Source: Amphiura filiformis
Lineage: Eukaryota; Echinodermata; Ophiuroidea; Amphilepidida; Amphiuridae
NCBI RefSeq assembly: GCF_039555335.1
Contig: NC_092628.1
Span: 101,454,647-101,518,646, forward strand
Length of the DNA: 64,000 nt
Direction: 5' to 3'
Below are positions 535-64,000 of this stretch, one piece after another. A program made the translations under genes and the position numbers. Position 1 is the first letter of the stretch, and each line of letters opens with the position of its first letter. Under the pieces are notes generated by a model that saw only the letters and a list, made by a program, of their open reading frames with translations, did not search any database and was not told the origin of the DNA.

Positions 535-845
535 TTGTTTTTATGAAAACCATTGTTTATACATTAGAGCAGTTTTGAACCGACATATTGTGTGGGGAAG
601 TTATTTTGTGGACTCTAAATCAGTATTTGACTATTTTGCAACGTTCAGAACTTCGGACCCCTTAGATTCTCACTGGAGCCCTTAAATTTGGGTTTTGCAG
701 GACCTAAAAGGTCCGGAAAAATCAACTGACTCCTTTACATTTTTGAGCTCCCGCTATCCCTGCTGGATCCATAGTCCAGAGGCAATTTGTTCTGTTCATC
801 ATACATAATCTCCGATCAATATAATGAACCTTGACTCTGACTACG

Positions 846-3690
846 CGGTCCCTATGTAGCCAAATTCTTAGAAGAATTTGAATGTTTTCTGTATGACATA
901 TCGCATCGTCCTGGAAAACCTTTAATTTTAGGAGATTTGAACATTCACGCTGATGATCCGTTAAAGTATGATGTTTCACGTTATCTTGCAATGCTTTCTC
1001 AACATGATTTCCATCAATTTGTGGACAGTCCTACTCACAAGTCGGGTCATATTATAGATCATGTGATCTGTCGCGTTGAAGACAACCTGTTGATTAGATG
1101 CAATGTATCCCCTAACAGACACGGTTCAGATCATCATATGATTGAATGTACCATTAATAAATCAAAACCAGTTCCAGAAAGAAGAGCGGTCACAAGAAGG
1201 GACTTTAAAGATCTTGACATCGACGTTTTCAAGACCGACTTGAATCATGAACTTCGCGAACTAGTAAAGCTTGAAGATCCTAATGAACAGGCCGTTGAGT
1301 ATAACATCAGAGTGCGCAAGGTTCTTGACAAACATTGTCCGGAAGAGACACAATTTCAAAGAACGATCAGATGTCCTAAATGGTTCGACGATAACATCAG
1401 ATCGGCCAGAAGGGAACGCCACAAACGTGAGCGCAAATGGCGGAAAACTCTCAGTGACTCTGATCGCGATGCATATCTTGAACAAAATAAAGTCGTAAAT
1501 AACATGATTATTCAATCTAAGAAAGATCATTTCAGAAATGTTTTAGCTGATGCTGATGCAAAAACAATGTATCGGACTGTAAATACACTTCTAAATACTG
1601 GTAGCTCAAATGGTGCTTTACCAACTTGTATCTCAAATGAAACACTCAGTAATAATTTTGCTAATTATTTTGAGGACAAAGTGTCAAAAATAAGGTCTGA
1701 GCTTGATGATCAATGTGTTACTGAAACTGTAAATATGTGTTCAAATGATGATGATGTTGTTGTTTCTTCCATGTCACAGACACCTACTGATAATGTGTGC
1801 AATAGTAATCATGTTAAGTCATCTACTGATAATATGTGCAATAATGTTCATGTGTTTGATATTTTTTCCCCTGTTCATGAAGCTGAGGTTCAAAAGATCA
1901 TATCCAAAATCCCCAACAAAACTAGTTCTCTCGATCCTCTTCCCACGTGGTTGTTGAAGGAATGTACTGACATCATTGCCCCTTTTGTTGTTTCACTAAT
2001 AAACAACTCTTTCAGTGCTGGGTCTTTTCCTTCCATCCTTCGCGATGCAGTTATTTCACCTCTCATCAAGAAATCCACCCTCAACCCGGATGTGTTAAAA
2101 CATTACCGTCCAGTGTCTAATCTTCCTACACTTGGTAAAATTATTGAATATCCTGCTGTTTCAAGGTTCAATGATCATCTTCAGTCCGAAAACCTTACTG
2201 AAGAATTCCAATCTGCTTACAAGCCAGGCCATAGTACTGAGACGGCCCTTTTGCGGGTTTAGAATGATATTGTTAATGAACTCGGTAGTGGTAGAATTGT
2301 ATTATTTGTTTTGTTAGATATGTCTGCAGCATTCGATACCATCGATCATAACATTCTTGTAAATAGATTTCAAAATGAATATGGTATCGAGGGTTGTGTT
2401 TTAAAGTGGTTTGATTCTTATCTCAGAGACCGTAGTAGTAAAGTTTGTGTCTCAGGTAGTTACTCTTCTGTACATAAGCTTAAATATGGCGTTCCACAAG
2501 GATCTGTCGCAGGTCCACCGATTTTCACCTCTTACTCTAAGCCTGTTACCAGCATTTTTAAGCGCTTCAGTGTTGCATATCATATCTATGCTGACGACAC
2601 CCAGCTGTATGTGAGCTATGATCCTAAGGTGTCCGGTGATAGGGAAGCTGCGCAAGCTCGCTTAACAAATTGCATTGCTGAGGTTAAAGCGTGGATGTTG
2701 AAAAACAAACTTAGGCTGAACGATTCTAAGACAGAATTCTTTATTATTTCGTCTCAAAAACAAAGAAATTCCATTCAGTGCGTTGACCTGAAGATTGGTG
2801 AATCTGCGATAGCTCCTGTGCCTTCTGTTAAGAACTTAGGTGTCATATTTGATCCCTGTCTCAAAATGGACTTACAGGTGTCTTCACTTTGTCGTACTGT
2901 TAATTTTCATTTGCGCAATATCTCACGTATTCGTCGTTTTATAGATCAAAATACATGTGCACATGCAGTACGATCTCTTGTTCTCTCTCGGCTGGATTAT
3001 GGCAACTCTTTGTTAGGTGGCATATCAGCTTTCAATGCACAGCGGCTGCAAAGGCTTCAAAATCGTGCGGCACGCTTGATTTACTGTGTTGATAGGCGCA
3101 CGAGCACTTCGCCGTTATTGCGCGAACTTCACTGGTTGCCAGTCCAGCAGAGAATAGACTTCAAGCTCCTAATGCATGTGTACAACTGTGTGTATAAATT
3201 AGCACCCATGTATCTCCAAGACCTTCTTCGTAGTTATAAGCCTGGTCGAGCTGGCCTTAGATCATCTAAAGATACTTTGCGCCTTGAAGTTCCATCTACT
3301 AAACGCGTAATTAGCGATAGCGCTTTCTGTGTTCTTGGACCCAAGCTTTGGAATCAGCTTCCCATTAATATCCGTCAGGCTCCCAGCGTAAAAGTATTCA
3401 AAATGTTATTAAAAACTCATCTTTTCCCCAAAGAGTAGCTATCTTTGCATATAATGTTTTTAAATATTGTCGCTTTGGTGTAATAATGATTGTAATTTAT
3501 CGGTAATATTGAATTGATGCTTTTATTTATGTGTAATTTTACTATATCATTTTTGCATTGTATTTTATATTTTTCAGTATATTCTTTCGTGTTTTTAAAT
3601 TGTGTATTTTAGCATTTATCTTGTAAAGCGCCTCGATCTATTGAAGAGGCGCTATATAAATGTGCAAATAATAATAATAATAATAATGAT
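846..3690 (+). mobile_element. L2-like LINE (non-LTR retrotransposon), 5'-truncated, nearly intact
   Basis: The element runs from the late endonuclease domain through reverse transcriptase to a 3' tail. Endonuclease motifs are LILGDLNIH near 930 and a SDHH block near 1125. RT motifs follow: FRPVSNLP-like block near 2105, DMSAAFDTIDHNIL near 2315, GVPQGSVAGP near 2490 and YADDTQLY near 2590. The C-terminal LHWLPVQQR block near 3130 is typical of L2-type LINEs. The 3' UTR carries a small inverted repeat (GCGCCTC / GAGGCGC) and ends in an (AAT)n tail at about 3668-3690, the usual L2 arrangement. The 5' end is truncated, as is normal for LINE copies. Only one internal stop interrupts the frame, so the copy is young. 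Confidence 0.9.
937..3438 (+). CDS. LINE ORF2: APE endonuclease C-terminal part plus reverse transcriptase
   Basis: The frame is open from 937 to 2259 and again from 2263 to 3438. A single TAG at 2260-2262 replaces a codon where relatives usually have a sense residue; there is no frameshift. The first part holds the end of the AP-like endonuclease and the linker to RT, with a Ser/Asp-rich stretch. The second part holds RT motifs 3 to 7, including the catalytic YADD at about residues 92-95 of the second part, followed by the C-terminal domain. The product would nick target DNA and prime cDNA synthesis. The missing N-terminal endonuclease catalytic residues make this copy non-autonomous. Confidence 0.85.
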
Positions 3691-4605: not shown

Positions 4606-5829
4606 CTATTGTTGCAGTGACGATCTGTGTACAGCAGATGATTTTTGCTGCTTAGCAACCGAGTTGCCAGTTGATTTCTCAGCTATCAGATCGTCAAAGA
4701 CGTGACTCAAGTTGTATTGCTCCTCGTCTCGGTTCATGGTTTTTCCCCGCTTTCTGATGGTGATTGCCTCCTTAATCCATCTCTTATATCTATCACTCTC
4801 TTTGCCAACGATTCTAGCCTCCTCCCAATTGATGACGTGGTTGTTGTCTACTACGTGGTCGGTGATGGCTGATTTATGAACTACCGATTGGGATGCCTTT
4901 CTAGTGGCTCTGGTTTTTATATTGTCACCAATTTTTTCCGCCTCAGTTTTATACTCTTCCAAGCGTTTACCAAACTTTCTTCCTGTCTCACCAATGTATG
5001 ACAAGTCACAATTTTTACATGGGATTGAATATATCACGTCCGTGGAATGATGGGGATCTCGCTTGTCCTTGGGCTGAACCAGGAGATTCCGCAGCGTACA
5101 ATTGGGTTTCATGGCGGTTGAGATATTGTAAGATTTAAAGACTCTCGAGATGCGCTCTGAAACATCTTCCACGTACGGTATAACAACTAAGCCTTTAGAC
5201 TTGGTGGAATCATCTTTCTTTGGTCTATCTTTCTTAGGTTTAGGCTTAGCCATCTGGTCTTTCACTTTTTCAATACTCCATTCTGGGTAACCACAATTTT
5301 GGAGAGCCCCTTTGATATGAGTTTCCTCCTCTACCTTGTCTTGCTCTTCCGTGACTATTTTGTTCTTTCTGTCAAGGAGTGTACGCACGACGCCAAGTTT
5401 CTGGTGGAGGGGGTGGTGTGACCTAAAGTTCAAGTATTGGTCGGTGTGTGTTGCCTTCCGATAAACCATTAACTTAACTGACCCATCATCACGGCGAACA
5501 ATCAATGTGTCCAAAAATGGGATCTTACCATCTGCTTCCTTCTCAAAGGTGAATTTGATGGAGTCAGTGTCGTCAGCTTGATTCAGGTGGTCAGTGAGAT
5601 TATTAACTTCGTCCTTGCACACAATTTCTAAGATATCATCCACATATCTCTTCCATAGCTTAGGTTTACATTCCAAAGGAGCAGTGGCGATGGCAATGTC
5701 TTCCAGGTGTTCCATAAAAATATTGGCGGCCAAAGGTGAAACTGGGCTGCCCATTGCTGCGCCGAAAAGCTGCCTGTAAATCTTCCCACGGAACGTAAAA
5801 TAAGTGGTAGAGAGGATGAAATCAAGCAA
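4606..5829 (-). CDS. Penelope RT C-terminal half and GIY-YIG endonuclease
   Basis: The 407-residue frame has RT motif MGSPVSP at residues 26-32 and the catalytic YVDD at 62-65. FLDT lies near 105, and HTDQYLNF, a Penelope hallmark, near 128. A Lys-rich linker (about 195-212) leads to the GIY-YIG nuclease. There the CKNC pair (271-274) precedes SYIGETGRK (277-285). The C-terminus carries TMNRDEEQYNLSHVFDDLI, the usual Penelope tail. The frame runs to within a few bases of the hammerhead-like fold. Upstream RT sequence continues on the minus strand at about 5822-6110 in another frame, so this copy is not intact. Confidence 0.85.
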   Translation of the reverse strand: MLDFILSTTYFTFRGKIYRQLFGAAMGSPVSPLAANIFMEHLEDIAIATAPLECKPKLWKRYVDDILEIVCKDEVNNLTDHLNQADDTDSIKFTFEKEADGKIPFLDTLIVRRDDGSVKLMVYRKATHTDQYLNFRSHHPLHQKLGVVRTLLDRKNKIVTEEQDKVEEETHIKGALQNCGYPEWSIEKVKDQMAKPKPKKDRPKKDDSTKSKGLVVIPYVEDVSERISRVFKSYNISTAMKPNCTLRNLLVQPKDKRDPHHSTDVIYSIPCKNCDLSYIGETGRKFGKRLEEYKTEAEKIGDNIKTRATRKASQSVVHKSAITDHVVDNNHVINWEEARIVGKESDRYKRWIKEAITIRKRGKTMNRDEEQYNLSHVFDDLIAEKSTGNSVAKQQKSSAVHRSSLQQ

Positions 5830-12901: not shown

Positions 12902-13915
12902 ATGAGCTAAATTTTGAGTTACACCTTTTCAATGTAAAATTTATTTTCTCGGCCAAATGAAAAGCAATCATTTTCATTTTTTCAGTAAATGTCAGGAAAA
13001 ATTGTAGTGCTTGATACTGTATTTTTTTTTCAAATTCTAGTGTTAAACTTAGGCGTGAAATTTAGTCATTTAGTGTAAGATTTTCGATTTTAATAGGCTT
13101 AAACTCTGCCCGCGAGCCTTTTTTGGATCAACCTTTTAGCTTTTCAAAGTAAGATAGTTCGCTAATGAAGGATTTTTCCCAACTTTCTAACGCACATCAC
13201 CGTGAGCGATATATCATAGTTTTGTCAGAATTTCCGTTTTGATTTCACCATCTTTCACTGTCGGCTGAAAAATTTCAAAATCAACCCGTGAAATCTAAGG
13301 CTAGTACTAGCATTGTGGATCGATATCCCTGGGTTTAATAGGAATACCGGCATGGCTATAGTGTTGCCAGAACTTCAATATAGCAAAGAAATTCCCAAAC
13401 CTATCGCGCCCCTACTGATCATGTTTAACCAGAACACCCAATTGGGGATTTAATCGCTGGTCGGGCAATTTGCTTTCAATGAAACATTGACCTGGATAAC
13501 AACAAAGGAAATATCGACTATTTCTGCTGGTTGCTCTCGAGAGTTTGACATTTTCGGAGCATGAATGGAAAAAGGGTAAAACAAAAACGGAAATTCTGAC
13601 AAAACTATAACATATAGACCCACACGATGTGCTTTACAGAGGTGGGAAATATCTTTCTTTAGCAAACTATATTAGTTTGAGACGCTAAAACATGAATTCC
13701 GTAAAAAGCTCGCAGGCAAATTCAAGGCCTATAAAAATCAAAATATCACACTAAAAGACACAATTTGATGCTTAATTTTAACACCAGGATTTTTTAAAAA
13801 TGTATATCCAAGCACCAAGTTTTTAACTGACATTACTGAAGAAAAAAAATTATTGCTTTATATTTGACCGAGAAAATTAATTTCATAGCAAAAAGGTGTA
13901 TCTCTGAATTGTGCT
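12902..13915. mobile_element. Long fold-back element inside PLE 2
   Basis: Diverged inverted arms of about 340 bp lie at about 12905-13250 and 13555-13910. Shared words include TACACCTTTT, TTTTCTCGG and TAGTTTTGTCAGAATTTCCG. The unit separates the RT N-terminal remnant from the main RT. No coding region is seen. Confidence 0.6.
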
Positions 13916-15308
13916 GATTTTTACATGTATCGACCGACTTTTAGCGCGACTAAGCATTTCTAAAGAATTGGTTGTCCAGGCGGCTGACTGTAAGCTCAAT
14001 AAAGACCCTGCCAAATCTCATCAAGCCAAACTCATTAAGTTACTGAAAGACTTTAAGAAATCCGGCAACCTTAGTGAAAAGCAATATAACAAGCTTTACC
14101 CTACCGCATGTTGTGTGCCCCAATTCTATGGACTTCCAAAAATACACAAGAAGGGAGCCTCATTGCGGCCAATCGTTTCTAGCATTAATTCGGTACACTA
14201 CGAATCTGGCAAGTTACTAGCAAATATTTTGTCTGCAGTAGTAGGGAAATCAGATCATCACATCAAAAATAGTGAAGACTTTGTTACTCGCATTAAGGAT
14301 CTTCGTATTGAATCAGACGAAATCCTTGTATCCTATGATGTGTCCTCTTTGTTTACGTGCATTCCGGTTAACAACGCTATCTAAGTAGTTTCAGATTTAT
14401 TTATTTATTTATTAGATCTTATTTTCCTGGGGAAACCCTATCAGTGTGAACACTGTTTTTCATGGGTGCCCAGGGGTCAAACAAAATACGTCAAAATGGA
14501 TTCTTCCTGGAAAAGTAAAACAGGTCTTTCCGCTGATCAGGTAATTGAGCTATTACAACTCTATCTCAGTAGCGCCTATTTTGTAGCCCAAGGAGAGTTT
14601 TTATCAACAATGGGAGGGTTGAGGGGCTATGAAGGGCTCTGCGAGCCCAGTTATCGCAAACCTGTTCATGGAGTATTTTGAAACTAAATGCTTGAAAACT
14701 CCACTATTAAACCTAAGATCTGGTTACGATATGTGGATGACACATTTGTGATACTACGTAAAGCAGAGACAGAATCTTTCTTCCAATTCATCAACGACCA
14801 AAACCCACATATCAGATTCACGTGTGAGCCAGAAGCAAACAGACATCTTGCCTTTCTTGATACAAAAATCACTAGGAAAGAAAGCGGTTCACTGGACGTC
14901 ACAATTTACCGGAAACCTACACACACCGACCAATATCTTCACTTCAACATTCATCATCCGATCTCTCATAAACTTAGTGTCATAAGAACTCTCACTCACA
15001 GAGCTAATACCGCTGTCACCGATCCCGAAGAAAGGGAAAAGGAGATTGAACATATCAAGGGTGCGCTTGGAAATTGTGGGTACCGCCAGTGGGCTTTTGA
15101 CCTTTCCACCAGTCGAAATAAACCCCCCACTCAAAATTCCAACCCTCCGGAACCAACATCTGACATCCCTCAACCAAGCAACAAGACTTTCATCACACTA
15201 CCCTTTCTGGATGGCATCTCGCAAAAACTTCAGCGTATATTCAAAACCTACGGGGTAGCCACCAGCTTTAAACCCCACACGACTTTTCGCAAAATCCTTG
15301 TCACCTAA
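13911..15308 (+). pseudogene. PLE 2 reverse transcriptase
   Basis: Penelope RT blocks are QFYGLPKIHKKGASLRPIVS near 14120, VSYDVSSLFTCIPVNNAI near 14330, and YVDDTFVIL near 14731. FLDTKITRKESGSLDVTIYR follows near 14855, then THTDQYLHFNIHHPISHKL near 14918. The region between motif A and YVDD is disturbed: a SINE-like insertion sits at 14392-14480 and the MGSP motif is not readable. It is followed directly by the endonuclease frame. Confidence 0.8.
14392..14480 (-). mobile_element. Short SINE-like insertion in PLE 2 RT
   Basis: On the minus strand it contains a CAGTGTTCACACTGATAGGG block, which has an internal dyad, and ends in an (AAAT)n tail. It splits the RT sequence. The AAAT tail suggests retroposition by a LINE. 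Confidence 0.5.
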
Positions 15309-15714
15309 GGACCCAGTTCCAATTGAAAAACGCTGTGGCTGCATATACCAGATTAACTGCACCGAATGCACAAAATCTTACATCGGACAGTCTGGAAGAC
15401 AACTGGGACAGAGACTTAAAGAACATAAGTCCACTGCTCCCAGCAGGACACCATCTGCCGTGTCTGAACACAGTACAGATACTCATCACCAAATTGACTG
15501 GGATAATGTCAAGGTTTTGAATCGTGAAGACAGAGAATACCCCCGCCTGGTGCGGGAGGCCCTTCAAATCAGAAAACAAACTCCAGCACTCAACCGTGAT
15601 CAAGGACTTGAGCTCCCTTCATTATATAATGCCCTAATCCGATCAATAGAAAGGACATCAAAGGTCGAGAGCAGGACATTCAACTCCATCAGTGCATCAT
15701 TGGAGTCCTCCTGA
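15298..15714 (+). CDS. PLE 2 GIY-YIG endonuclease domain
   Basis: The 138-residue frame begins with a cysteine cluster, CGCIYQINCTEC (residues 13-24), followed by KSYIGQSGRQLGQRLKEH, the GIY-YIG core in Penelope form with the expected arginine. VSEHSTDTHHQIDW supplies a conserved His region. The C-terminal block TPALNRDQGLELPSLYNALI is typical. It would nick target DNA to prime reverse transcription. The stop codon TGA at 15712-15714 lies inside the CTGATGA core of the hammerhead fold, so coding sequence and ribozyme overlap by a few bases. Confidence 0.85.
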   Translation: MSPKDPVPIEKRCGCIYQINCTECTKSYIGQSGRQLGQRLKEHKSTAPSRTPSAVSEHSTDTHHQIDWDNVKVLNREDREYPRLVREALQIRKQTPALNRDQGLELPSLYNALIRSIERTSKVESRTFNSISASLESS

Positions 15715-26765: not shown

Positions 26766-26846
26766 TATTCAGCAAACACCAAAATGTTTTTAAAACATGA
26801 TAAACCATGTGTTTTTGGTTTTAGTTAAAACATTTTGATAACATTG
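26766..26846. repeat. MITE fragment (CAGCAAACAC family)
   Basis: TCAGCAAACACCAAAATG and the following AAAACATT words match the termini of the 9034-9719 element. The LINE begins right after it. Confidence 0.55.
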
Positions 26847-29800
26847 TGGGTCTAGTCGATTCCTACAATGACGGTCTTCGTCAAGTTCTGGACCGACATG
26901 CCCCATTGCAAACTCGTAGTGTAAGAGACCGACCATCTGCCCCCTGGTTGACTGCTGAAGTCAGAGATGCCCGGCGTAGTAGAAGACGTGCTGAACGACT
27001 GTGGCGCAAGACAAAATTAACTGTTCATAAGGAAATGTATATAAATATGAGGAACGAAGCTACACAACATGTTATAGCTGCAAAAAGACAATTTTACACT
27101 GCTAAAATTGACTCTGACCCCTTTTCTACCAAGCAGCTTTTTAGTGTATCCAACCAGCTTCTCGGAAAATCAAGAACTTCTGCATTACCAACTAACATTC
27201 CTCCGAACGAACTTCAAGAACGTTTTTGTCAATTCTTTTCTAATAAGATCATCAATCTACGGGAGGAACTAGATTCTCGGCACTCTCTTCCACCATCATT
27301 TAGCGTGTATGAAGGTCCGGTTTTCGATCAATTTACTCTTGTCTCTGAAGACGAAATCTCCGATTTGATAAAGAGTATGCCCACAAAAGGTTGTATCTTA
27401 GACCCGCTGCCGACCGACCTTGTGAAACAGTGGCCGCACCCAGCGTGTCTTAGTTGAGGGTCAGTCTTCAACCACTTCAAGTGTTACCTCTGGTGTACCA
27501 CAGGGCACAGTCCTGGGCCCTCTGCTGTTTCTGGTCTTTATCAATGACCTCCCTTCGATGGCTTCATCTACTACCAGAATGTTTGCAGATGATTGCCTTA
27601 TGTATCGCACCATTCATGATACTTCTGATGCTGCAGCCTTGCAAGCAGACTTGGACAACTTACAGCAGTGGGAACAGGACTGGCTGATGGATTTCAACCC
27701 AAGTAAATGTGAAGTCATCACCATCTCCAACAAGAGAAACTGCATCTCATTTCCATATACCATTCACAATGAAACTCTCAAGAAAACAGACTGTGCCAAA
27801 TATCTTGGCGTACACATTACCAGCAACCTGTCTTGGAGCACCCATGTAGATAAAATCTGCAAGAAAGCCAACAGCACTCAAGCATTTCTTCAGCGAAACA
27901 TCAGAAGCTGCCCACAAAAGATCAAAGCCAGATGTTATACTACACTTGTCAGGCCATTGCTTGAATTCTCCTCAGCTGCATGGGCTCCTCATCATAAATC
28001 CGACATCAATAACCTGGAGTTTCAGAGGCGTGCAGCCCGTTTTGTGATGAGGGACTATCACCGCACGAGCAGTGTATTAAACATGCTCAGTCAGCTTAAC
28101 TGGCCAACTCTCCAGCAACGCAGAGACACGTCCAAGCTTGTGATGTTGTACAAGAGCTATTATGGTCTTGTTGACATACCACCACGCCACCTTGTGCTGC
28201 TGTCATCACGTACAAGAGGTCACAACCTAAGATTTGTGATCCCTCGAGCCTCCATCTTGGTGTACCAACATGCATTCTTCCCCAGTACCATCCGGATGTG
28301 GAATGCTCTTCCAGCTTCCTTGGTCACAGCTCCATCCTGTGAGGCATTCAGAGGAGGCCTGACCAACATCATCCCTTCAGCATCATTGGAGTTTTCCTGC
28401 ACCTTTTTTTTTTCTGCACCGCGCTTGCTCCATGGATGTGATAATACTCGGCCACCGAGGGATACATCTCACCACAAAGAAGAAGAAGAAGAAGAAGAAG
28501 AAGTGTGCCGATGATCTTGTTCCCCTGTTAACTTGCATTATTAATGAGTCCCTTGCATCCGGTATTGTTCCTGATCAATTCAAGCAGGCCATTATTGTTC
28601 CTATTTTAAAGAAAAATGGGCTTGATTGTAATGATCTTAAGAATTTTAGACCAGTTTCGAACTTACCATTCATCTCAAAAATTCTCGAAAAGGTAGTTCT
28701 TTGTCAACTACAGCAACACCTATGTGAGAATAACTTGTTGGAAATTAACCAATCTGCGTATAGGAAGGGCCACAGCTTGGAGACCGCAGTACTGAGTGTC
28801 GTGAACAATTTGCTATCCAATTCTGATGAGAAGTTAATCTCTCTCACTTCACTCCTAGACCTCAGCGCTGCGTTTGATACGCTGGACCATTCAATCCTCC
28901 TTAGGCGCCTTGAATGTAGTTTTGGTATCAGAGACACTGTACTTAACTCAGTCTATGTTTCTCAACGTTTGCAATCTGTGATTGTTAATGGATCGATTTC
29001 CAATCCACACCCTCTTTTGTACGGGGTCCCTCAAGGCTCCGTACTCGGTCCAGTTTTATTTACATTATATTCTCAACCACTTTCCGACGTCATCATCCAG
29101 CACAACTGCTCTTTTCATAAGTACGCGGATGACACCGAAATATCACAATGTGGCATGCCTCAGGACTTTGTGTCAACTAAGCTGTCCATTCAAGAGTGTA
29201 TTAAAGCTGTTTTGTGTTGGATGGATAGTAATAAGCTCATGCTCAATACAGATAAGACGGAGGTTATCACCGTTGGTACGGCTTCTCGTGTTAGCCAGAT
29301 TGAAGATAATACTATACAAATTTTGGACTCTGATATCACCTTTCAAAAATCTGTTAAGTACCTCGGTGTGCGTTTAGATCAAACTTTGTCTATGTCTGAA
29401 CATATCAGCGATATTTGCCGTTCCTCATTTCTATCTCTGAGACGTATTGGCTGCATTCGACCTTACTTGTCTGATAAAGCAACATCATGTCTGGTTAATT
29501 CAATAATTCTGTCGCGGCTTGATTTCTGCAATTCCATCTTGACAGGTATCACTGCTGATCAACTTAACCGTCTTCAAAATTGTGCGGCCCGTCTTATTGT
29601 CAAAAAAAGAAAGCATGAGCATATTACACCAATCCTCATCGAGCTTCACTGGCTGCCCGTCGAATTGCGCATCCAATTTAAACTTGCCGTTCTGGCTTTC
29701 CGTCACTTCGATGGCACTTTACCACCATACCTGTCATCTGCGCTTTGTACTTATCAAACTTCCCGCTCCCTTCGATCATCCTCTGAAAAATTACTCAAAA

Positions 29801-30068
29801 CTCCTCGGGTTAACCTTAAATCAACGCTCATTTCATTTTGCTGCTCCAACTGTTTGGAACTCGCTTCCAAACAACCTTCGTAACATCCCCACACTTTCTC
29901 AATTTAAACGTCAGCTTAAAACCCATCTCTTTCGTCAAGCTTTTCCAGATTCACAGAATTAATTGCTTCTTTGTTTGTTTGTCTTTTTCATGTGTTTGCG
30001 CGCTCTGAGTTCCACGGAAGATTTTGAGCCTTAAAAGAACCATTCATTATTTTTTATTATTATTATTA
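26846..30068 (+). mobile_element. L2-like LINE, 5'-truncated, carrying a nested LINE
   Basis: Linker and RT N-terminal sequence run to 27430. The body resumes at 28504 and ends with an (ATT)n tail near 30068. RT blocks include FRPVSNLPFISKILEKVV near 28645, DLSAAFDTLDHSILL near 28860, GVPQGSVLGPVLFTLYSQPL near 29025 and KYADDTEIS near 29120. ELHWLPVELRIQFK near 29640 is the L2 C-terminal mark. The frame changes near 29720. A deletion has removed part of the block after FGIRDTVLN. Confidence 0.85.
27431..28503 (+). mobile_element. Second LINE (CR1/Jockey type) inserted in the first
   Basis: The copy is 5'-truncated and 1.07 kb. Its RT is open from the left junction: RTQRVLVEG, SGVPQGTVLGPLLFLVFIND, MFADDCLMYR, KYLGVHITSNLSWSTHVDKI and YTTLVRPLLEFSSAAWAPHH. 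The 3' end is a (GAA)n tail at 28479-28503. At the junctions, AAACAG|TG and TG|TGCCGAT rejoin into an unbroken host LINE frame (Lys-Gln-Cys-Ala-Asp). A direct AGTG at both ends may be a 4-bp target duplication. Confidence 0.85.
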
Positions 30069-43411: not shown

Positions 43412-44398
43412 TCATTTCATTTTTGCTTTCTTAGCTTTGTCAAAGGACCAGTTCGGATAACCGCACTTCTTTAATGCACTGTTAATGTGCGATTTCTCCT
43501 CCGCTATGTCCTCTTGCTCCGATATGATTCTGTCCGCTCTGTGGTGAAGAGTCTGGATTACACCCAGTTTATGTTGGACAGGATGATTTGAATCAAAGTT
43601 CAAGTATTGATCCGTGTGGGTCGGTTTCCTATTGATTTTTATTTTTAGCGTACCGTCCTCTTGGATGACTGTGTGAGTGTCAAGGAATGCGAGTGACCGA
43701 TTTTCCTCGCCTTCTGTCGTAAACTTGATGTCCGGATCGATTGAGTTCAAGTGATTCGTAAATTCCGCGTATTGTTGCTTTAACTTTGTATGAGTATCGT
43801 CCACATAACAGAACCGCCACAAAGGGGGGGGGGTGGCTGATCTTATAGCTTCCTGTTCTAATTGTTCCATATATAAGTTGCAGACGATCGGGGATACAGG
43901 TGACCCCATGGCCGTGCCATGGATTTGCTGATAGTAATTTCCATTATAAACAAAGTAAGTACAATTCAAACACACTTCAAGAAGTTTTATCACATGCGCA
44001 GCAGACAGGCGGGTGCGATCACAAAGTGCGTTATCCTGTTCCAGACGAGCTTGAATAATCCTTAATGCTTTATCAACGGGTACAGAGGTAAAAAGAGCAG
44101 TAACATCATATGATCTTAATTCTTCGTCCTCCTCTACAGTTTCGTTCGTAATTCGCTCGGCGAAAATCTGGGAATTGGCAACGTGATGTACTGTATTACC
44201 AGGGACTAAAATGTCAGCAACCAATTTAGCACTACTGTATGTGATTGACCCGACGCTGCTCACAATGGGTCTAAGTGGAGTGTCTTTCTTATGAATTTTG
44301 GGCAACCCGTAAAATTTGGGCGGAGTTTCGGTGGTGGGGTACAACTGTCTATACTCAACTCTGTTAATACCACCCTCTTTCTCGATTTCAAGAAGCAC
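43412..44398 (-). CDS. PLE 3 reverse transcriptase
   Basis: The 328-residue frame contains KFYGLPKIHKKDTPLRPIVS (31-50), YDVTALFTSVPVDKALRII, AMGSPVSPIVCNLYMEQLE and the catalytic CYVDDTH. FLDTHTVIQEDGTLKIKI, then THTDQYLNFDSNHPVQHKLG, and GYPNWSFDKAKK at the end complete it. Minus-strand sequence up to about 44600 adds the N-terminal block ILPADKGRLVVILN in a neighbouring frame. The frame leads straight into the endonuclease tail (residues like ATGADTIYQ), so the nuclease core is deleted. Confidence 0.85.
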   Translation of the reverse strand: MLLEIEKEGGINRVEYRQLYPTTETPPKFYGLPKIHKKDTPLRPIVSSVGSITYSSAKLVADILVPGNTVHHVANSQIFAERITNETVEEDEELRSYDVTALFTSVPVDKALRIIQARLEQDNALCDRTRLSAAHVIKLLEVCLNCTYFVYNGNYYQQIHGTAMGSPVSPIVCNLYMEQLEQEAIRSATPPPLWRFCYVDDTHTKLKQQYAEFTNHLNSIDPDIKFTTEGEENRSLAFLDTHTVIQEDGTLKIKINRKPTHTDQYLNFDSNHPVQHKLGVIQTLHHRADRIISEQEDIAEEKSHINSALKKCGYPNWSFDKAKKAKMK

Positions 44399-44639
44399 AG
44401 ATGTTAATTGTTTCTTGTACTTACTGGTTGGACCCTTTTACCTAAGTTTTTGTAGGTATTAGTGTCACTAAGAAGTTTCTCACACTTGCGATTGTATTCC
44501 TCACTATTCAAGATGACCACTAATCTTCCCTTATCGGCTGGTAATATTTGGATTGACTTATCTTTCTGAAGCTGTTGCAAAGCTTCCCTCTCCTCTTTAG
44601 AAAGGTTAGAATCAATCTTATCACAGTTAGGGCGACTGA

Positions 44640-44995: not shown

Positions 44996-46990
44996 ATTTC
45001 CAATTATTGTTTGTGTTTGTATTTTGGGACAACTATGTTCTAGCCCGAAACTAATGAATTAATATACATGCATGCAAGCACTGTATTATCTTTAACAAAC
45101 GGTTTAAAATAGGTTCCGATGGAGGAGTCCGTGTTGAGTGTTCTACCAATGACTATTTTTGGGACAACTATGTTTTATCCCTGGCCTGACACGCTTATTA
45201 ACTAACACATTAACGTAAAAACATTGTATGTGTTTGTATTTTGAGGACAACTATGTCATTGTATGTGTTAGTCCTCCTACATGTAGCCTGAAACGGTTAT
45301 TAACTAACACATTCATGTACAAACATTGTATGAGTTTGTATTTTTGGGACAACTATGTGTTAGTCCTGGCCTGAAACAGGTATTAACTAACACATTCATG
45401 TACAAACATTGTATGTGTTTGTATTTTTAGGACAACTATGTGTTAGTCCTGGCCTGAAACAGGCATTAACTAACACATTCATGTACAAACATTGTGTGAG
45501 TTTGTATTAGTCCTGGCCTGTAACAGGTATTAACTAACACATTAATGTACAAACATTGTATGTGTTTGTATTTTGGGACAACTATGTTCTAGCCTGAAAC
45601 TAAAAAAATAATATACATGCATGCAAGCACTGTATTATCTTTAACAAACGGGTTTAAATAGGTTATGATGGAGGAGACCTTGCTGTGTGTTCTACCAATG
45701 ACAATTTTGGGACAACTATGTTTAAGTCCGGGCCTGACACGCTTATTAACTAACACATAACGTACAAACATTGTATGTGTTTGTATTTTTGGGACAACTA
45801 TGTCATTGTATGTGTTAGTCCTGGCCTGTACAAACAGTGTATGTGTTTGTTTTTTTGGGACAACTATGTGTTAGTCCTGGCCTGAAACGGTTATTAACTA
45901 ACACATTCATGTACAAACATTGTATGTGTTTGTATTTTGGGGACAACTATGTGTTAGTCCTGGCCTGAAACAGGTATTAACTAACACATTCATGTACAAA
46001 CATTGTATGTGTTTGTATTTTTGGGACAACTATGTGTTAGTCCTGGCCTGTAACAGGTATTAACTAACACATTCATGTACAAACATTGTATGTGTTTGTA
46101 TTTTTAGGACAACTATGTGTTAGTCCTAGCCTGTAACAGGTATTAACTAACACATTAATGTACAAACATTGTATGAGTTTGTATTAGTCCTGGCCTGTAA
46201 CAGGTATTAACTAACACATTCATGTACAAACATTGTATGTGTTTGTATTTTTGGGACAACTATGTGTTAGTCCTAGCCTGAAACAGGTATTAACTAACAC
46301 ATTAATGTACAAACATTGTATGTGTTTGTATTTTTAGGACAACTATGTGTTAGTCCTAGCCTGTAACAGGTGTTAACTAACATATTCATGTACAAACATT
46401 GTATGTGTTTGTATTTTGGAACTATGTTCTAGCCTGAAACTAATCAATTAATATACATGCATGCAAGCAGCTGCAAGCACTGTATTATCTTTAACAAACG
46501 GTTTAAAATAGGTTATGATGGAGGAGACCGTGCTGAGTGTTCTACTAATGACTATTTTTGGGACAACTATGTTTTATCCCTGGCCTGACACGCTTATTAA
46601 CTAACACATTAATGTACATACATTGTATGTGTTTGTATTTTTGGGACAACTATGAGTTAGTCCTGGCCTGAAACAGGTATTAAGTAACACATTCATGTAC
46701 AAACATTGTATGTGTTTGTATTTTGGGACAACTATGTTCTAGCCTGAAACGATTATTAACTAATAAATTAATATACATGCATGCAAGCACTGTATTCTAT
46801 TTAACAAACTGTTTAAAATGGGCTCCGATGGAGGAGACCGTGCTGAGTGTTCTATGACTATTTTTGGGACAGCTATAATTATGTTTTAGTCCTGGCCTCA
46901 CACGCTTATTAGCTAACATATTAATGTACAAGCACTGTACATGTGTTTGTATTTACAACTATGTGTTAGTCCTAGCCTTAAACGGTTATC
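44996..46990. repeat. 83-bp satellite array with longer interspersed units
   Basis: The basic unit is about 83 bp. Within it ATGTGTTAGT pairs with ACTAACACAT, enclosing CCTG...CAGG, so each unit can form a hairpin. A longer unit type with ATACATGCATGCAAGCACTG and GATGGAGGAGACCGTGCTGA occurs near 45050, 45615, 46455 and 46760. No coding potential. Confidence 0.85.
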
Positions 46991-49419: not shown

Positions 49420-52400
49420 CTCTATCGCATACCGGTAGCTTGTCATGGTTAGATATTCTGCTATCTACCGTAGATAGCTTGACATGTTTAAATATTCTAT
49501 ACTATCTACCGTAGATAGCTTGACATGTTTAAATATTCTACTATCTACCGTAGATAGCTTGTCATGGTTAGATATTCTGCTATCTACCGTAGATAGCTTG
49601 ACATGTTTAAATATTCTATACTATCTACCGTAGATAGCTTGACATGTTTAAATATTCTATACTATCTACCGTAGATAGCTTGACATGTATAAATATTCTG
49701 CTATTTGCCGTATATAGCTTTCATGTTTAAATAGGGGAGACCGGGGAGTGTTCGCCCCAGGGGCAGGTTCGCCCACCCCTTGTTTCTCAGCACTACTCTC
49801 TACCGATACCGTAGATAGCTTGTCATGATTAAATATTCTGATGATCTACCGTAGATAGCTTGTAATGTTTAAATATTCTGCTATCTTCCGTAGATAGCTT
49901 GTCATGTTTAAATATTCTACTATCTACCGTAGATAGCTTGTCATGTTTTAATATTCTACTATCTACCGTAGATAGCTTGTCATGTTTAAATATTCTGCTA
50001 TCTACCGTAGATAGCTTGTCATGTTTAAATATTCTACTATCTACCGTAGATAGCTTGTCATATTTAAATATTCTACTATCTACCGTAGATAGCTTGCCAT
50101 GTTTAAATATTCTACTATCTACCGTAGATAGCTTGCCATGTTTAAATATTCTACTATCTACCGTAGATAGCTTGCCATGTTTAAATATTCTACTATCTAC
50201 CGTAGATAGCTTGCCATGTTTAAATATTCTACTACCTACCGTAAAAAAAGAATGTCTCAGATAGCTTGTCATTTTTTAAATACTCTACTATCTACCGTAG
50301 ATAGCTTGGCATGTTTAAATATTCTATAATCTACCGTAGATAGATTGCCATGTACCAGTATTCTGCTATCTACCGTAGATGGCTTGGTATGTTTAAATAT
50401 TCTGCTATCTACCGTAGATAGCTTGTCTTGTTTAAATATTCTACTATCTACCGTAGATGGCTTGGTATGTTTAAATATTCTGCTATCTACCGTAGATAGC
50501 TTGTCTTGTTTAAATATTCTACTATCTACCGTAGATAGCTTGGCATGTTTTAATATTCTACTATCTACCGTAGATAGCTTGGCATGTTTAAATATTCTAT
50601 AATCTACCGTAGATAGATTGTCATGTACCAGTATTCTGCTATCTACCGTAGATAGCTTGGTATGTTTAAATATTCTGCTATCTACCGTAGATAGCTTGTC
50701 TTGTTTAAATATTCTACTATCTACCGTAGATAGTTTGCCATGTTTAAATATTCTACTATCTACCGTAGATAGCTTGTCATGTTTAAATATTCTACTATCT
50801 ACCGTAAATAGCTTGCCACGTTTAAATATTCTGCTATCTACCGTAGATAGCTTGCCATGTTTAAATATTCTGCTATCTTCCGTAAATAGCTTGTCATGTT
50901 TAAATATTCTGCTATCTACCGTAGATAGCTTGGCATGTTTTAATATTCTACTATCTACCGTAGATAGCTTGGCATGTTTTAATATTCTACTATCTACCGT
51001 AAATAGCTTGTCATGTTTAAATATTCTATTATCTACCGTAGATAGCTTGTAATGTTTAAATATTCTACTATCTACCGTAGATAGCTTGGCATGTTTTAAT
51101 ATTCTACTATCTACCGTAGATAGCTTGATTCGTTTAAATATTCTGCTATCTACCGTAGATAGCTTGTCATGTTTAAATATTCTGCTATCTTCCGTACATA
51201 GCTTGTAATGTTTAAATATTCTGCTATCTACCGTAGATAGCTTGGCATGTTTTAATATTCTACTATCTACCGTAGATAGCTTGCCATGTTTAAATATTCT
51301 ACTATCTACCGTAGATAGCTTGCCATGTTTTAATATTCTGCTATCTACCGTAGGTAGCTTGTCATGTTTAAATATTCTACTATCTACCGTAGATAGCTTG
51401 TCATGTTTAAATATTCTGCTATTTACCGTATATAGCTTTCATGTTTAAATATTCTACTATCTACCGTAGATAGCTTGTCATGTTTAAATATTCTGCTATC
51501 TACCGTAGATAGCTTGGCATGTTTAAATATTCTGCTATCTTCCGTAAATAGCTTGTCATGTTTAAATATTCTGCTATCTACCGTAGATAGCTTGGCATGT
51601 TTTAATATTCTACTATCTACCGTAGATAGCTTGGCATGTTTTAATATTCTACTATCTACCGTAAATAGCTTGTCATGTTTAAATATTCTATTATCTACCG
51701 TAGATAGCTTGTAATGTTTAAATATTCTACTATCTACCGTAGATAGCTTGTCATGTTTTAATATTCTACTATCTACCGTAGATAGCTTGCCATGTTTTAA
51801 TATTCTGTTATTTACCGTAGATAGCTTGTCATGTTTAAATATTCTATTATCTACCGTAGATAGCTTGTAATGTTTAAATATTCTGCTATCTTCCGTAGAT
51901 AGCTTGTCATGTTTAAATATTCTACTATCTACCGTAGATAGCTTGTCATGTTTAAATATTCTATTATCTACCGTAGATAGCTTGTAATGTTTAAATATTC
52001 TATTATCTACCGTAGATAGCTTGTAATGTTTAAATATTCTACTATCTACCGTAGATAGCTTGTCATGTTTTAATATTCTGCTATCTACCGTAGATAGCTT
52101 GTCATGTTTAAATATTCTGCTATCTACCGTAGATAGCTTGTCATGTTTAAATATTCTGCTATCTACCGTAGATAGCTTGTCATGATTAAATAATCTACTA
52201 TCTACCGTAGATAGCTTGTCATGTTTAAATATTCTGCTATCTACCGTAGATAGCTTGTAATGTTTTAATATTCTGCTATCTACCGTAGATAGCTTGGCAT
52301 GTTTAGATATTCTACTATCTACCGTAGATAGCTTGTCATGTTTAAATATTCTGCTATCTACCGTATATAGCTTGTCATGTTTAAATATTCTGCTATCTTC

Positions 52401-55095
52401 CGTAGATAGCTTGTAATGTTTTAATATTCTGCTATCTACCGTAGATAGCTTGTCATGTTTAAATATTCTACTATCTACCGTAGATAGCTTGTCATGTTTA
52501 AATATTCTGCTATCTTCCGTAGATAGCTTGTAATGTTTTAATATTCTGCTATCTACCGTAGATAGCTTGTCATGTTTAAATATTCTACTATCTACCGTAG
52601 ATAGCTTGCCATGTTTTAATATTCTACTATCTACCGTAGATAGCTTGTCATGTTTAAATATTCTGCTATCTTCCGTAGATAGCTTGTCATGTTTAAATAT
52701 TCTGCTATCTACCGTAGATAGCTTGTCATGTTTAAATATTCTACTATCTACCGTAGATAGCTTGTCATGTTTAAATATTCTGCTATCTTCCGTAGATAGC
52801 TTGTCATGTTTAAATATTCTGCTATCTACCGTAGATAGCTTGTCATCATTTAAATAATCTACTATCTACCGTAGATAGCTTGTCATGTTTAAATATTCTG
52901 CTATCTTCCGTAGATAGCTTGTAATGTTTAAATATTCTGATATCTACCGTATTTAGCTTGTCATGTTTAAATATTCTGCTATCTACCGTAGATAGCTTGT
53001 CATGTTTAAATATTCTACTATCTACCGTAGATGGCTTGGTATGTTTAAATATTCTGCTATCTACCGTAGATAGCTTGTCATGTTTAAATATTCTACTATC
53101 TACCGTAGATAGCTTGTCATGTTTAAATATTCTGCTATCTACCGTAGATAGCTTGTCATGTTTAAATATTCTACTATCTACCGTAGATAGCTTGTCATGT
53201 TTTAATATTCTACTATCTACCGTAGATAGCTTGTCATGTTTAAATATTCTGCTATCTACCGTAGATAGCTTGTCATGTTTTAATATTCTGCTATCTACCG
53301 TAGATAGCTTGTCATGTTTAAATATTCTGCTATCTACCGTAGATAGCTTGTCATGTTTAAATATTCTACTATCTACCGTAGATAGCTTGTCATGTTTAAA
53401 TATTCTGCTATCTACCGTAGATAGCTTGTCATGTTTAAATATTCTACTATCTACCGTAGATAGCTTGTCATGTTTTAATATTCTACTATCTACCGTAGAT
53501 AGCTTGTCATGTTTAAATATTCTGCTATCTACCGTAGATAGCTTGTAATGTTTTAATATTCTGCTATCTACCGTAGATAGCTTGTCATGTTTAAAATATA
53601 TTCTGCTATCTACCGTAGATAGCTTGTCATGTTTAAATATTCTGCTATCTACCGTAGATAGCTTGTCATGTTTAAATATTCTGCTATCTACCGTAGATAG
53701 CTTGCCATGTTTTAATATTCTGCTATCTACCGTAGATAGCTTGTCATGTTTAAATATTCTACTATCTACCGTAGATAGCTTGTCATGTTTAAATATTCTG
53801 CTATCTACCGTAGATAGCTTGTCATGGTTAGATATTCTACTATCTTCCGTAGATAGCTTGTCATGTTTAAATATTCTACTATCTACCGTAGATAGCTTGT
53901 CATGGTTAGATATTCTACTATCTTCCGTAGATAGCTTGTCATGTTTTAATATTCTACTATCTACCGTAGATAGCTTGTCATGTTTAAATATTCTGCTATC
54001 TACCGTAGATAGCTTGCCACGTTTAAATATTCTATCTACCGTAGATAGATTGTCATGTACCTGTATTCTGCTATCTACCGTAGATAGCTTGTCATGTTTT
54101 AATATTCTACTATCTACCGTAGATAGCTTGGCATGTTTTAATATTCTACTATCTACCGTAGATGGCTTGGTATGTTGAAATATTCTGCTATCTACCGTAG
54201 ATAGCTTGTCATGTTTAAATATTCTACTATCTACCGTAGATAGCTTGTCATGTTTAAATATTCTGCTATCTTCCGTAGATAGCTTGTAATGTTTAAATAT
54301 TCTGATATCTACCGTATTTAGCTTGTCATGTTTAAATATTCTGCTATCTACCGTAGATAGCTTGTCATGTTGAAATATTCTGCTATCTACCGTAGATAGC
54401 TTGTCATGTTTAAATATTCTGCTATCTACCGTAGATAGCTTGTCATGTTTTAATATTCTACTATCTACCGTAGATGGCTTGGTATGTTGAAATATTCTGC
54501 TATCTACCGTAGATAGCTTGTCATGTTTAAATATTCTACTATCTACCGTAGATAGCTTGTCATGTTTAAATATTCTGCTATCTTCCGTAGATAGCTTGTC
54601 ATGTTTAAATATTCTGCTATCTACCGTAGATAGCTTGTCATGTTTAAATAATCTACTATCTACCGTAGATAGCTTGTCATGTTTAAATATTCTGCTATCT
54701 TCCGTAGATAGCTTGTAATGTTTAAATATTCTGATATCTACCGTATTTAGCTTGTCATGTTTAAATATTCTGCTATCTACCGTAGATAGCTTGTCATGAT
54801 TAAATAATCTACTATCTACCGTAGATAGCTTGTCATGTTTAAATATTCTGCTATCTACCGTAGATAGCTTGTCATGTTTAAATAATCTACAGTAGATAGC
54901 TTGTCATGTTTAAATATTCTGCTATCTACCGTAGATAGCTTGTATTGTTTAAATATTCTGCTATCTACCGTAGATAGCTTGTCATGTTTAAATATTCTAC
55001 TATCTACCGTAGATAGCTTGTCTTGTTTAAATATTCTACTGTCTACCGTATAGATAGCGTAATGTTTAAATATTCTGCTATCTACCATAGATAGG
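49420..55095. repeat. 39-bp satellite array, about 143 monomers
   Basis: The monomer is CTATCTACCGTAGATAG plus CTTGTCATGTTTAAATATTC(T)(A/G), 39 bp. CTATCTAC and GTAGATAG form an 8-bp dyad around one C. Variants at the TGTCATG segment (TGCCATG, TGGCATG, TGTAATG, TGTCTTG) and at the last base form longer-period patterns. Because 39 is a multiple of three, frames stay open on both strands and produce 13-residue repeats. A foreign 70-bp GC-rich piece interrupts the array at about 49732-49803. Confidence 0.95.
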
Positions 55096-61189: not shown

Positions 61190-61372
61190 TAATTTCATCT
61201 GGGTCAGGTATTTTCCATCATTTTGTAACTTGTTATTGTTTTGATATCAATCCAAGATGGCGTCTCCATTTATCATCATGCAGTGCTAACGCAATAGCGT
61301 AACGCCGGGTGTGGTGGCAAGTAGGGCTGGGATGTGTGATGGTGACCTTATTTTTATCATCCATGATGCATC

Positions 61373-62155
61373 ATGAAGGTCTTCATTTTTCATATATCTC
61401 TGTTGGTGATCTTCACATTCATGTGTAAAAGAGAATCGAGCTACATAAGCTTAAAACCCAGTATAAATTCTGTAAACATACATGTTAATGTTGTATCAAA
61501 TACTCATACTAGTACAGTGCATTATGTTTCTAATGAGTATTCACTGAGTCATAGTAATATATCAATATGCTCTTACATGTATTACTGTTGTTATGATTGT
61601 TATAGATGTCTTTCACCATTCAATATGCATGAACATGTCAATATTTCTGATACATTTGCAAACATGACATTTGTTTTCAAGTTTTACTTATATCCTGCTG
61701 ACATCAAATTGTTACTTGGTAAGATAAGGTCGAAGTCAGACCATATTAGTCTCCGCAAGTTGGTTCTCACCTATTGCATGATCCTTGTCATGCAAGCTGG
61801 CGATATAGAGACTAATCCCGGTCCCGATTTCCCCTGCCAAATTTGCAATGAAGAATGTGACTGGTCATGCTATGCTGTTGGATGCGACATGTGTGACGCA
61901 TGGTTTCACGCCAAGTGCCTAAATATGAGTACTCGGACATATGCAGCTCTGGAGGACAGTGATGTCTCCTGGATATGTACGTGCGGCTTGCCTAACTTTG
62001 CAAGTTCATTGTTTACCTCTTGGTCGACTGTAACAGAAAATAGTTACAGAGTGCTATCTTCGCTAAGTAGTGAGGATGACATTAGATCCCCCTTAGCTGC
62101 ATCGTCACCTATTCATATTCCAACTAGGCATCACGCAAGACACAGGTTTTCATAA
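61373..62155 (+). CDS. LINE N-terminal product: signal-like leader, 2A-like motif, PHD finger
   Basis: 260 residues. Residues 1-18 (MKVFIFHISLLVIFTFMC) look like a signal peptide. LRKLVLTYCMILVMQAGDIE leads to the 2A-like core GDIETNPGP at 143-151 (DNA 61799-61825), which fits D(V/I)ExNPGP. Known 2A motifs make ribosomes skip the Gly-Pro bond. A PHD-type zinc finger follows: C155, C158, C171, C174, H179, C182, then WICTC with C202 and C204. The last pair is spaced one residue closer than usual. GLPNFASSLF after it is common in CR1-like ORFs. The frame ends just before the endonuclease, which continues one frame over. Confidence 0.8.
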   Translation: MKVFIFHISLLVIFTFMCKRESSYISLKPSINSVNIHVNVVSNTHTSTVHYVSNEYSLSHSNISICSYMYYCCYDCYRCLSPFNMHEHVNISDTFANMTFVFKFYLYPADIKLLLGKIRSKSDHISLRKLVLTYCMILVMQAGDIETNPGPDFPCQICNEECDWSCYAVGCDMCDAWFHAKCLNMSTRTYAALEDSDVSWICTCGLPNFASSLFTSWSTVTENSYRVLSSLSSEDDIRSPLAASSPIHIPTRHHARHRFS

Positions 62156-62231
62156 GCGTACAAGATGGTCTGACAAGCCTACTACCACTGGTAGTGGCTG
62201 TCCCTCCCCTAAGAACAAACCAGTCAAAGTC

Positions 62232-63236
62232 ATGGTCATAAACTTCCAGAGCATCTGTAACAAAGTTGCCGAGCTGGCATTCTGTCTGGACGTAAATAGC
62301 CCTGATATTTTAATCGGAACAGAGTCTTGGCTGTCGGATGACATAAGTAGTAGTGAAATTTTTCCATCAAATTATTCCGTCATCCGAAAAGATAGGCCCC
62401 TTGATGACCATGGTAAGCGTTACGGTGGAGTCTTTATCTGTATGAAAAACGACATCATCATGTCACATCGTGCAGACTTGGACAGTGAGTGCGAAATACT
62501 ATGGGCACAATTAGAGCTTGTCGGCTCCAAAAAAATCCTTTTAGGTGCCTTTTATAGACCCCCTGAATCGGGAAGTGATATACTAGAACAACTACAGGTG
62601 TCTCTTTCCAAATTAGAGAATAACAAAGACCACAATATATGGTTGGCTGGTGATTTCAACCTCTCTCACATTGATTGGGAGGAACAGTCAACCACCCAGG
62701 GTTGTCCAAAACCTGGGTTATGTAGGCAATTATTGGAATTAACCAATGATTTTGGCCTAGACCAGGTAGTCCGTGAACCAACTCGTGGTCAAAATATTTT
62801 GGATTTATTTTTCGTGTCAAATACTAGCCTGGTCGGAAACGTGAGGGTTATTCCTGGGATGAGTGACCACAATGGAATTCCAGTGGTTACAATAAATACC
62901 CGCCCAAAAGTTAACAAATCTAAACCCAGGAAGGTATTTTCATACCACAAAGCAGATTGGTCAGCCGTAAGGTCAGATCTCGCTGAGATTAGTAGTGATT
63001 TTCTAGATCTCTGTTCAGAGATGGTCACAGTTGATGAGATGTGGGATGATTTCTGTACCAGGGTCAAGGGTACTATGGAACGGAACATCCCTTCAAAGAT
63101 CGTAAGCCCTCACAAGAAACCTCCGTGGTTCAGTCGAAATGTCTCACGGTTGTATAGGAAGAAAAAGAAAGCCTTTAGCAAGGCAAAGCACTCAAACAGT
63201 ACTGAAGACTGGGAGATCTTTCGATCACTTAAGTAA
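62232..63236 (+). CDS. LINE AP-type endonuclease domain
   Basis: Open frame of 334 residues, extending upstream to about 62145 without stop. APE catalytic landmarks are N4 (INFQSICNK), E31 (GTESW), Y109 (GAFYRPPE), D142 and N144 (AGDFNLSHIDW), and S212-D213-H214 (MSDHNG). THR-like VREPTRGQNILDLFF (181-195) is the usual CR1 block. The tail KKPPWFSRNVSRLYRKKKKA is the linker before RT. It nicks target DNA for target-primed reverse transcription. All visible catalytic residues are present. Confidence 0.85.
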   Translation: MVINFQSICNKVAELAFCLDVNSPDILIGTESWLSDDISSSEIFPSNYSVIRKDRPLDDHGKRYGGVFICMKNDIIMSHRADLDSECEILWAQLELVGSKKILLGAFYRPPESGSDILEQLQVSLSKLENNKDHNIWLAGDFNLSHIDWEEQSTTQGCPKPGLCRQLLELTNDFGLDQVVREPTRGQNILDLFFVSNTSLVGNVRVIPGMSDHNGIPVVTINTRPKVNKSKPRKVFSYHKADWSAVRSDLAEISSDFLDLCSEMVTVDEMWDDFCTRVKGTMERNIPSKIVSPHKKPPWFSRNVSRLYRKKKKAFSKAKHSNSTEDWEIFRSLK

Positions 63237-63240
63237 ACAG

Positions 63241-64000
63241 CTAAATAGAGAGTCTACTTGAAATTACCGTCAATATGTTAGAGACACATGTATGGTATCA
63301 ATGAAGAAGTTCTACTCCTTCATTAAGAGTCTTAAGCATGACTCTTTCGGCATTCCATCACTTAAAATCGATGGGAGACTAGTTTCTGAAAATATTAAGA
63401 AGGCTGACATCCTGAACCATCAATTTGAGTCAGTGTTCTGTAAGGAGAGACTTGATAATCTTCCACACATACCAGGTTCAAAATTTCCATGCATGCCAAA
63501 CATACATATATCCATCAATGGTATTGAAGAGCTACTGACAGACCTTGACCCGAACAAAGCAACTGGACCTGACGGCGTGCCTGCACGCATTCTAAAGATG
63601 GGGGCAAAGGAGATTGCGCCAGCCCTGGCGACCATCTTTAGAAAATCACTCGAGACTGGCAATTTGCCTGAAGATTGGAAGAATGCGAATGTAACTCCAA
63701 TCTTCAAAAAGGAGATCGCATACAGCCTTGCAACTATAGACCGGTTTCCTTACTTCTATATGTTGCAAGGTGATGGAACTATGTCATTCATTGAATGTCA
63801 TGAAACATCTTGACAAGTATGGCATATTGACCGACCATCAACATGGCTTTACGAAATCGATCGTGTGAATCTCAATTAATACTGACAACAAATGACTTAC
63901 GCCAAATCCCTCGACAAGGCGACAGACAGGCGTCATCATAATGGACTTCAGCAAGGCCTTTGATGTAGTACCACATCAGAGGCTCATGCTGAAACTTGCC
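63241..64000 (+). pseudogene. LINE reverse transcriptase, N-terminal part, broken
   Basis: Translation of 63292-63710 gives KKFYSFIKSLKHDSFGIPSL, ADILNHQFESVF, DPNKATGPDGVPARILK and LPEDWKNANVTPIFKK, the RT motifs 0-2. After about 63710 the frame shifts; DFSKAFDVVPHQ appears at the right edge. Catalytic YADD would lie outside the window. Confidence 0.8.

Follow-up and report, generated by a model that had tools for sequence, protein, structure and literature searches.

The last few kilobases of the DNA analysed here, a 64,000-nucleotide stretch from the brittle star Amphiura filiformis that we refer to as the window, encode the peptide GDIETNPGP within a long open frame. The question raised by this locus is what kind of gene carries the peptide, and whether such a gene would release the residues on either side of it as separate products. 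The reading that we favour, with a probability of about 0.8, is a degenerate non-LTR retrotransposon (LINE) resembling the CR1/L2 lineage, whose 5' frame holds a 2A (StopGo) peptide immediately followed by a PHD finger, with ribosome skipping operating in an intact relative. The exact 2A core, the stop-free frame upstream, the PHD-like finger and the adjoining LINE-type endonuclease together favour a 2A-bearing LINE, from which we infer the CR1/L2 lineage. The features are collected in Table 1.

Table 1. Features of the LINE-like element at the 3' end of the window.
Feature	Coordinates	Strand	Basis and remarks
Open frame, 260 codons	61373-62155, including TAA at 62153	+	Carries the 2A-like peptide and the PHD-like finger; ORF1 or 5' part of a single ORF
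Hydrophobic N-terminus (residues 1-18), resembling a signal or anchor	61373-61426	+	Hydropathy
Stop-free stretch from leader to 2A, residues 19-126	61427-61750	+	
2A-like peptide, residues 127-151, ending GDIETNPGP	61751-61825	+	Exact motif; predicted skip Gly150/Pro151
PHD-like zinc finger (residues 155-204) ending in a C-x-C pair	61835-61984	+	Pfam PHD and PDB PHD matches
Endonuclease frame (stop to stop), first ATG 62232	62097-63236	+	PF14529; frame differs from PHD frame
Remains of putative RT part	63237-64000	+	TGA at 63259; frame 1 stays open as far as 63811, then pieces in frames 0 and 2

The 2A-like peptide and the PHD-like finger

GDIETNPGP is encoded at 61799-61825 of the forward strand, as residues 143-151 of the frame starting at 61373, and contains the octapeptide D(V/I)ExNPGP in the form DIETNPGP (61802-61825). 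The proposal that it fits the 2A consensus, made from the sequence-only reading, was borne out by its exact core and by its rarity. A six-frame scan of the window found NPGP once only, within this peptide, and a first-order Markov model of the window gives chance expectations of 0.35 for NPGP, 2.8e-4 for DxExNPGP and 1.4e-6 for GD(V/I)ExNPGP; DxExNPGP was present in none of 60 simulated windows. The motif is real and, as 2A-like signals in LINEs were known before, it is an ordinary find.

How well the peptide would work can be judged from its neighbouring residues. The hexapeptide directly 5' of DIETNPGP, LVMQAG, has Val at p7 and Gln at p9, and with the D at p12 it appears to fit the L-rich class of PMC12846837, in which a hexapeptide ending in (A/S/C)G goes with D at that position. 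We also compared the peptide with SpNLR2A6, a sea-urchin 2A whose recoding is estimated at ~80% (PMC4981915), decoding the latter from the primer printed in that paper: 12 of 26 residues are equal, as are 5 of the 18 outside the octapeptide. SpNLR2A6 has Leu at p7 and Arg at p9, where the substitutions L13V (p7) and R11A (p9) lowered recoding substantially (PMC4981915); in F2A, activity fell to 34% with L7A and to 82% with L9A (PMC12846837). By analogy with the reduced recoding in SpNLR2A6, the Val and Gln at these positions would be a warning for 2A activity here. Skipping by this peptide is to be expected, perhaps incompletely.

The first cysteine of the PHD-like finger follows NPGP at the fourth position. 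The Pfam PHD model aligns to residues 155-203 with an E-value of 6.3e-5 and 23.4 bits, just under the cut-off of 24, and C1_2 gives a weak match (E 0.018), below its own cut-off. Searching the PDB with phmmer returned the PHD fingers of Pygopus, MLL and BPTF at E-values of 1.6e-4 to 2e-4, and a loose PHD pattern run over the six frames of the window had this finger as its single match. The last ligand pair is formed by Cys202 and Cys204. In PHD fingers the last pair is usually C-x2-C; since the spacing here is one residue shorter, the finger may be damaged in this copy.

The leader and the codons before the motif

The frame opens with the leader MKVFIFHISLLVIFTFMC, whose best 15-residue hydropathy is 2.53 on the Kyte-Doolittle scale; of the 191 frames in the window that start with ATG and encode 40 aa or more, two have a similarly hydrophobic N-terminus. 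A second hydrophobic tract, residues 124-145, overlaps the 2A peptide. KRE comes directly after the hydrophobic stretch of the leader, and no good signal-peptidase site was found after it by eye, using the (-3,-1) rule. Given these two observations, the leader may be a signal, an anchor or a product of chance, either of the latter two being as likely as the first.

The leader ATG at 61373 is flanked by A at both -3 and +4, and the interval from 61200 to 61373 contains six out-of-frame ATGs. An ATG at 61257 (A at -3, G at +4), inside AAGATGGCG at 61254-61289, begins an upstream frame of 10 codons located 116 bases 5' of the leader ATG; the same segment resembles a YY1 site. Seven in-frame Met codons precede GDIETNPGP, the inner ones being Met17, 69, 85, 98, 136 and 140, so the start codon of the 61373 frame is not certain.

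Upstream of GDIETNPGP the frame is free of stops for 142 codons, a result not reproduced in any of 20,000 Markov simulations of those 426 bases. Codon statistics show no clear coding bias in this stretch, and at most a weak one. Its RNY value is 0.28, compared with a simulated 0.246 (sd 0.039), and was matched or exceeded in 397 of 2000 simulations; its codon-usage score is 0.048 in the true frame, 0.028 and 0.032 in the other forward frames, and 0.094 in one reverse frame. G+C by codon position is low, 0.30-0.36, compared with 0.42-0.54 in the 2A and PHD part. Residues 19-126 matched no Pfam family and no credible PDB relative. The PDB search with the pre-2A stretch returned 12 sequences at E-values from 0.062 up to 1, 11 of them named Toxin B, which we dismissed as chance. 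AlphaFold, given the 260-aa sequence alone, was uninformative (mean pLDDT 30.3).

The leader ends near residue 18, which leaves a gap of about 125 residues before GDIETNPGP. This bears on the suggestion, made from the sequence alone, that the 2A-bearing leader could act as a signal: the hydrophobic start stands, but its link to the 2A is weakened by that distance, given that in sea-urchin NLR proteins the signal is the 2A itself. Beginning at residue 143, GDIETNPGP would be an N-terminal signal of that type only if translation started at Met136 or Met140.

Downstream frames, relatives and known systems

In the endonuclease frame, PF14529 (Exo_endo_phos_2) matches residues 151-261 with an E-value of 2.3e-13, and PF03372 matches below its cut-off (E 5.8e-4); the segment 62217-63233 had no match in the PDB at E 0.01. 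The PF14529 match represents the AP-like endonuclease expected of an APE-type non-LTR retrotransposon. A host NLR-type gene, considered as an alternative source of the motif, was rejected because this LINE endonuclease adjoins it. The initial description of a LINE with hydrophobic residues before the 2A and a PHD-like finger after it agrees with the hydropathy, the Pfam PHD and PDB matches and PF14529.

Downstream of 63234 there is a change of frame, a nonsense TGA at 63259 and then RT-like pieces alternating between frames 1, 0 and 2, before the element is truncated by the window end at 64000. The pieces in 63237-64000 were named RT by eye, and Pfam had no match in 63262-63810. With the PHD frame ending at the stop at 62153, the endonuclease in another frame and these further breaks, the PHD-endonuclease-RT product that had been predicted cannot be made from this copy. 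The PHD and endonuclease frames may represent two overlapping ORFs or parts of a single ORF that has been disrupted here.

The search for other copies within the window used positions 1-61000 as target. We found no DNA match by blastn with 61200-64000, and tblastn with three frames gave nothing beyond a weak match of the RT-side frame (63262-63810) to 1912-2073, in an RT-bearing ORF (E 8.9e-6, 31% over 54 aa). In external collections no relative was found with the PHD part as protein query (viral_contigs), with the endonuclease frame as protein query or a DNA pattern of 2A plus CxxC (viral_contigs and genome_contigs), or with two RT-motif DNA patterns (viral_contigs); neither phages, searched as protein, nor plasmids, searched as DNA, matched the element. 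As these collections are mostly prokaryotic or viral rather than animal genomes, the missing relatives say little. Two pattern matches were dismissed as chance, namely, one in Clostridium symbiosum (L001), out of frame with a 448-aa ORF, and one in an IMG/VR contig (L002), inside an 828-aa ORF on the minus strand; both ORFs look unrelated by eye.

The window holds other repetitive DNA. Another LINE-like element lies at 841-3438, with weak endonuclease matches in 841-2259 and RVT_1 in 2263-3435 (E 9.1e-19), and it contains neither the PHD pattern nor NPGP. Overlapping RT-bearing frames at 26825-29962 (RVT_1 E 2.6e-32 in 28363-29880) look by eye like one LINE inside another. Frames resembling Penelope-type elements by eye occur at 4606-5829 (-), 13908-15714 (+) and 43412-44437 (-); Pfam gave weak RVT_1 and GIY-YIG matches in 4609-5829, RVT_1 just below cut-off in 43415-44437 and no match on two pieces of 13908-15714. 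Tandem arrays with 83- and 64-bp units, which also repeat at the longer periods 147, 230 and 313 bp, span 45286-46750, and an array of about 135 copies of a 39-bp unit (91% matches) spans 49807-55094, where long frames stay open because 39 is a multiple of 3. The window scan found no tRNA and no Rfam family at gathering score.

Odon et al. 2013 reportedly tied 2As to CR1, L2, Rex1 and Crack elements and to single-ORF forms. Those APE-type non-LTR retrotransposons are likewise reported to have D(V/I)ExNPGP in frame and upstream of the endonuclease-RT part, whereas here the endonuclease is in another frame, the copy is broken and 2A skipping is putative. PHD domains occur in many CR1 and L2 lineage subgroups, some apparently with a single ORF and an N-terminal PHD (PMC4120745); the finger described here likewise lies at the 5' end of the coding region, but unlike those PHDs it falls just below the Pfam cut-off and ends in C-x-C. 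According to PMC4981915, 2A-like sequences are present in the non-LTR elements of a variety of species, trypanosomes among them, and the N-terminal 2As of sea-urchin NLR proteins can serve both as signals and as skipping elements. Our peptide resembles the latter in being L-rich and ending in GD(V/I)ETNPGP. However, the sea-urchin 2A of 26 aa is itself the N-terminal signal (PMC4981915), whereas here a separate hydrophobic start lies well upstream in a LINE gene. That non-LTR elements carry 2As is also stated briefly in PMC11512398, and in PMC5009743 we found nothing further on LINE 2As. Among the matches listed in our literature search, no published account has a LINE 2A directly before a PHD finger; the core LINE-2A papers, which are the most relevant ones, lie outside the scope of that search, and we therefore claim no novelty for the arrangement.

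Alternative readings and implications

In an intact relative, the ribosome would free at NPG/P an N-terminal product, which in this copy would have 150 residues, a hydrophobic start and an end in NPG. The second product would begin with Pro and the PHD finger, with the endonuclease-RT either continuing that frame or forming a second ORF. Having no hydrophobic start, the PHD part could enter the nucleus; there it may recognise chromatin marks and assist targeting. The skipping, the fate of the leader and the role of the PHD finger in the element are what we infer.

Alternatively, the 2A could be real and the long leader frame not a product of the family at all, with translation starting at one of the six inner Met codons and MKVFIF... 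being 5' untranslated sequence left open by chance; from Met136 or Met140, only 16 or 12 residues would run through the final Pro of GDIETNPGP, and the 2A would then be N-terminal, as in sea-urchin NLR proteins. The seven in-frame Met codons, the low G+C and weak codon bias of the pre-2A stretch and the out-of-frame ATGs in 61200-61373 are in line with such a start, but the in-frame run of 142 codons without a stop before the motif, unmatched in simulation, argues against it, and we consider it rather unlikely. Distinctly unlikely, in our view, is a leader that works as a signal or signal-anchor, with incomplete skipping dividing a PHD-bearing protein between the ER and the cytosol or nucleus. 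Such dual targeting has been demonstrated for the 2A signal of a sea-urchin NLR peptide (PMC4981915), and a hydrophobic start of a type found in so few frames of the window would suit it. Yet leader and 2A are separate here, which makes this reading weak, the leader has no good cleavage site by eye, and routing through the ER would hardly suit a PHD/endonuclease protein. A motif that arose by chance, or survives as a functionless relic, is very improbable: the copy is broken downstream, but against this stand the expectation for GD(V/I)ExNPGP, the position of the motif, which shares its frame with an open stretch and immediately precedes a PHD-like finger, and the 2As already published in LINEs (PMC4981915).

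The degenerate 2A-bearing LINE, which we prefer, is a further example of a 2A in such an element, here beside a PHD-like finger. Being one damaged copy, it leaves undecided what ribosome skipping is for in LINEs. A bolder proposal, which we hold to be a long shot, is that in this LINE family skipping frees a membrane-inserted N-terminal protein, unrelated to any known ORF1 type, from a nuclear PHD-endonuclease-RT encoded in one frame; if true, a single element would supply a membrane part and a chromatin-reading part out of one frame. If intact copies with a conserved leader exist, they would provide a test of why LINEs skip, namely, of whether they do so to shed an N-terminal segment before the part that reads chromatin and cuts DNA.
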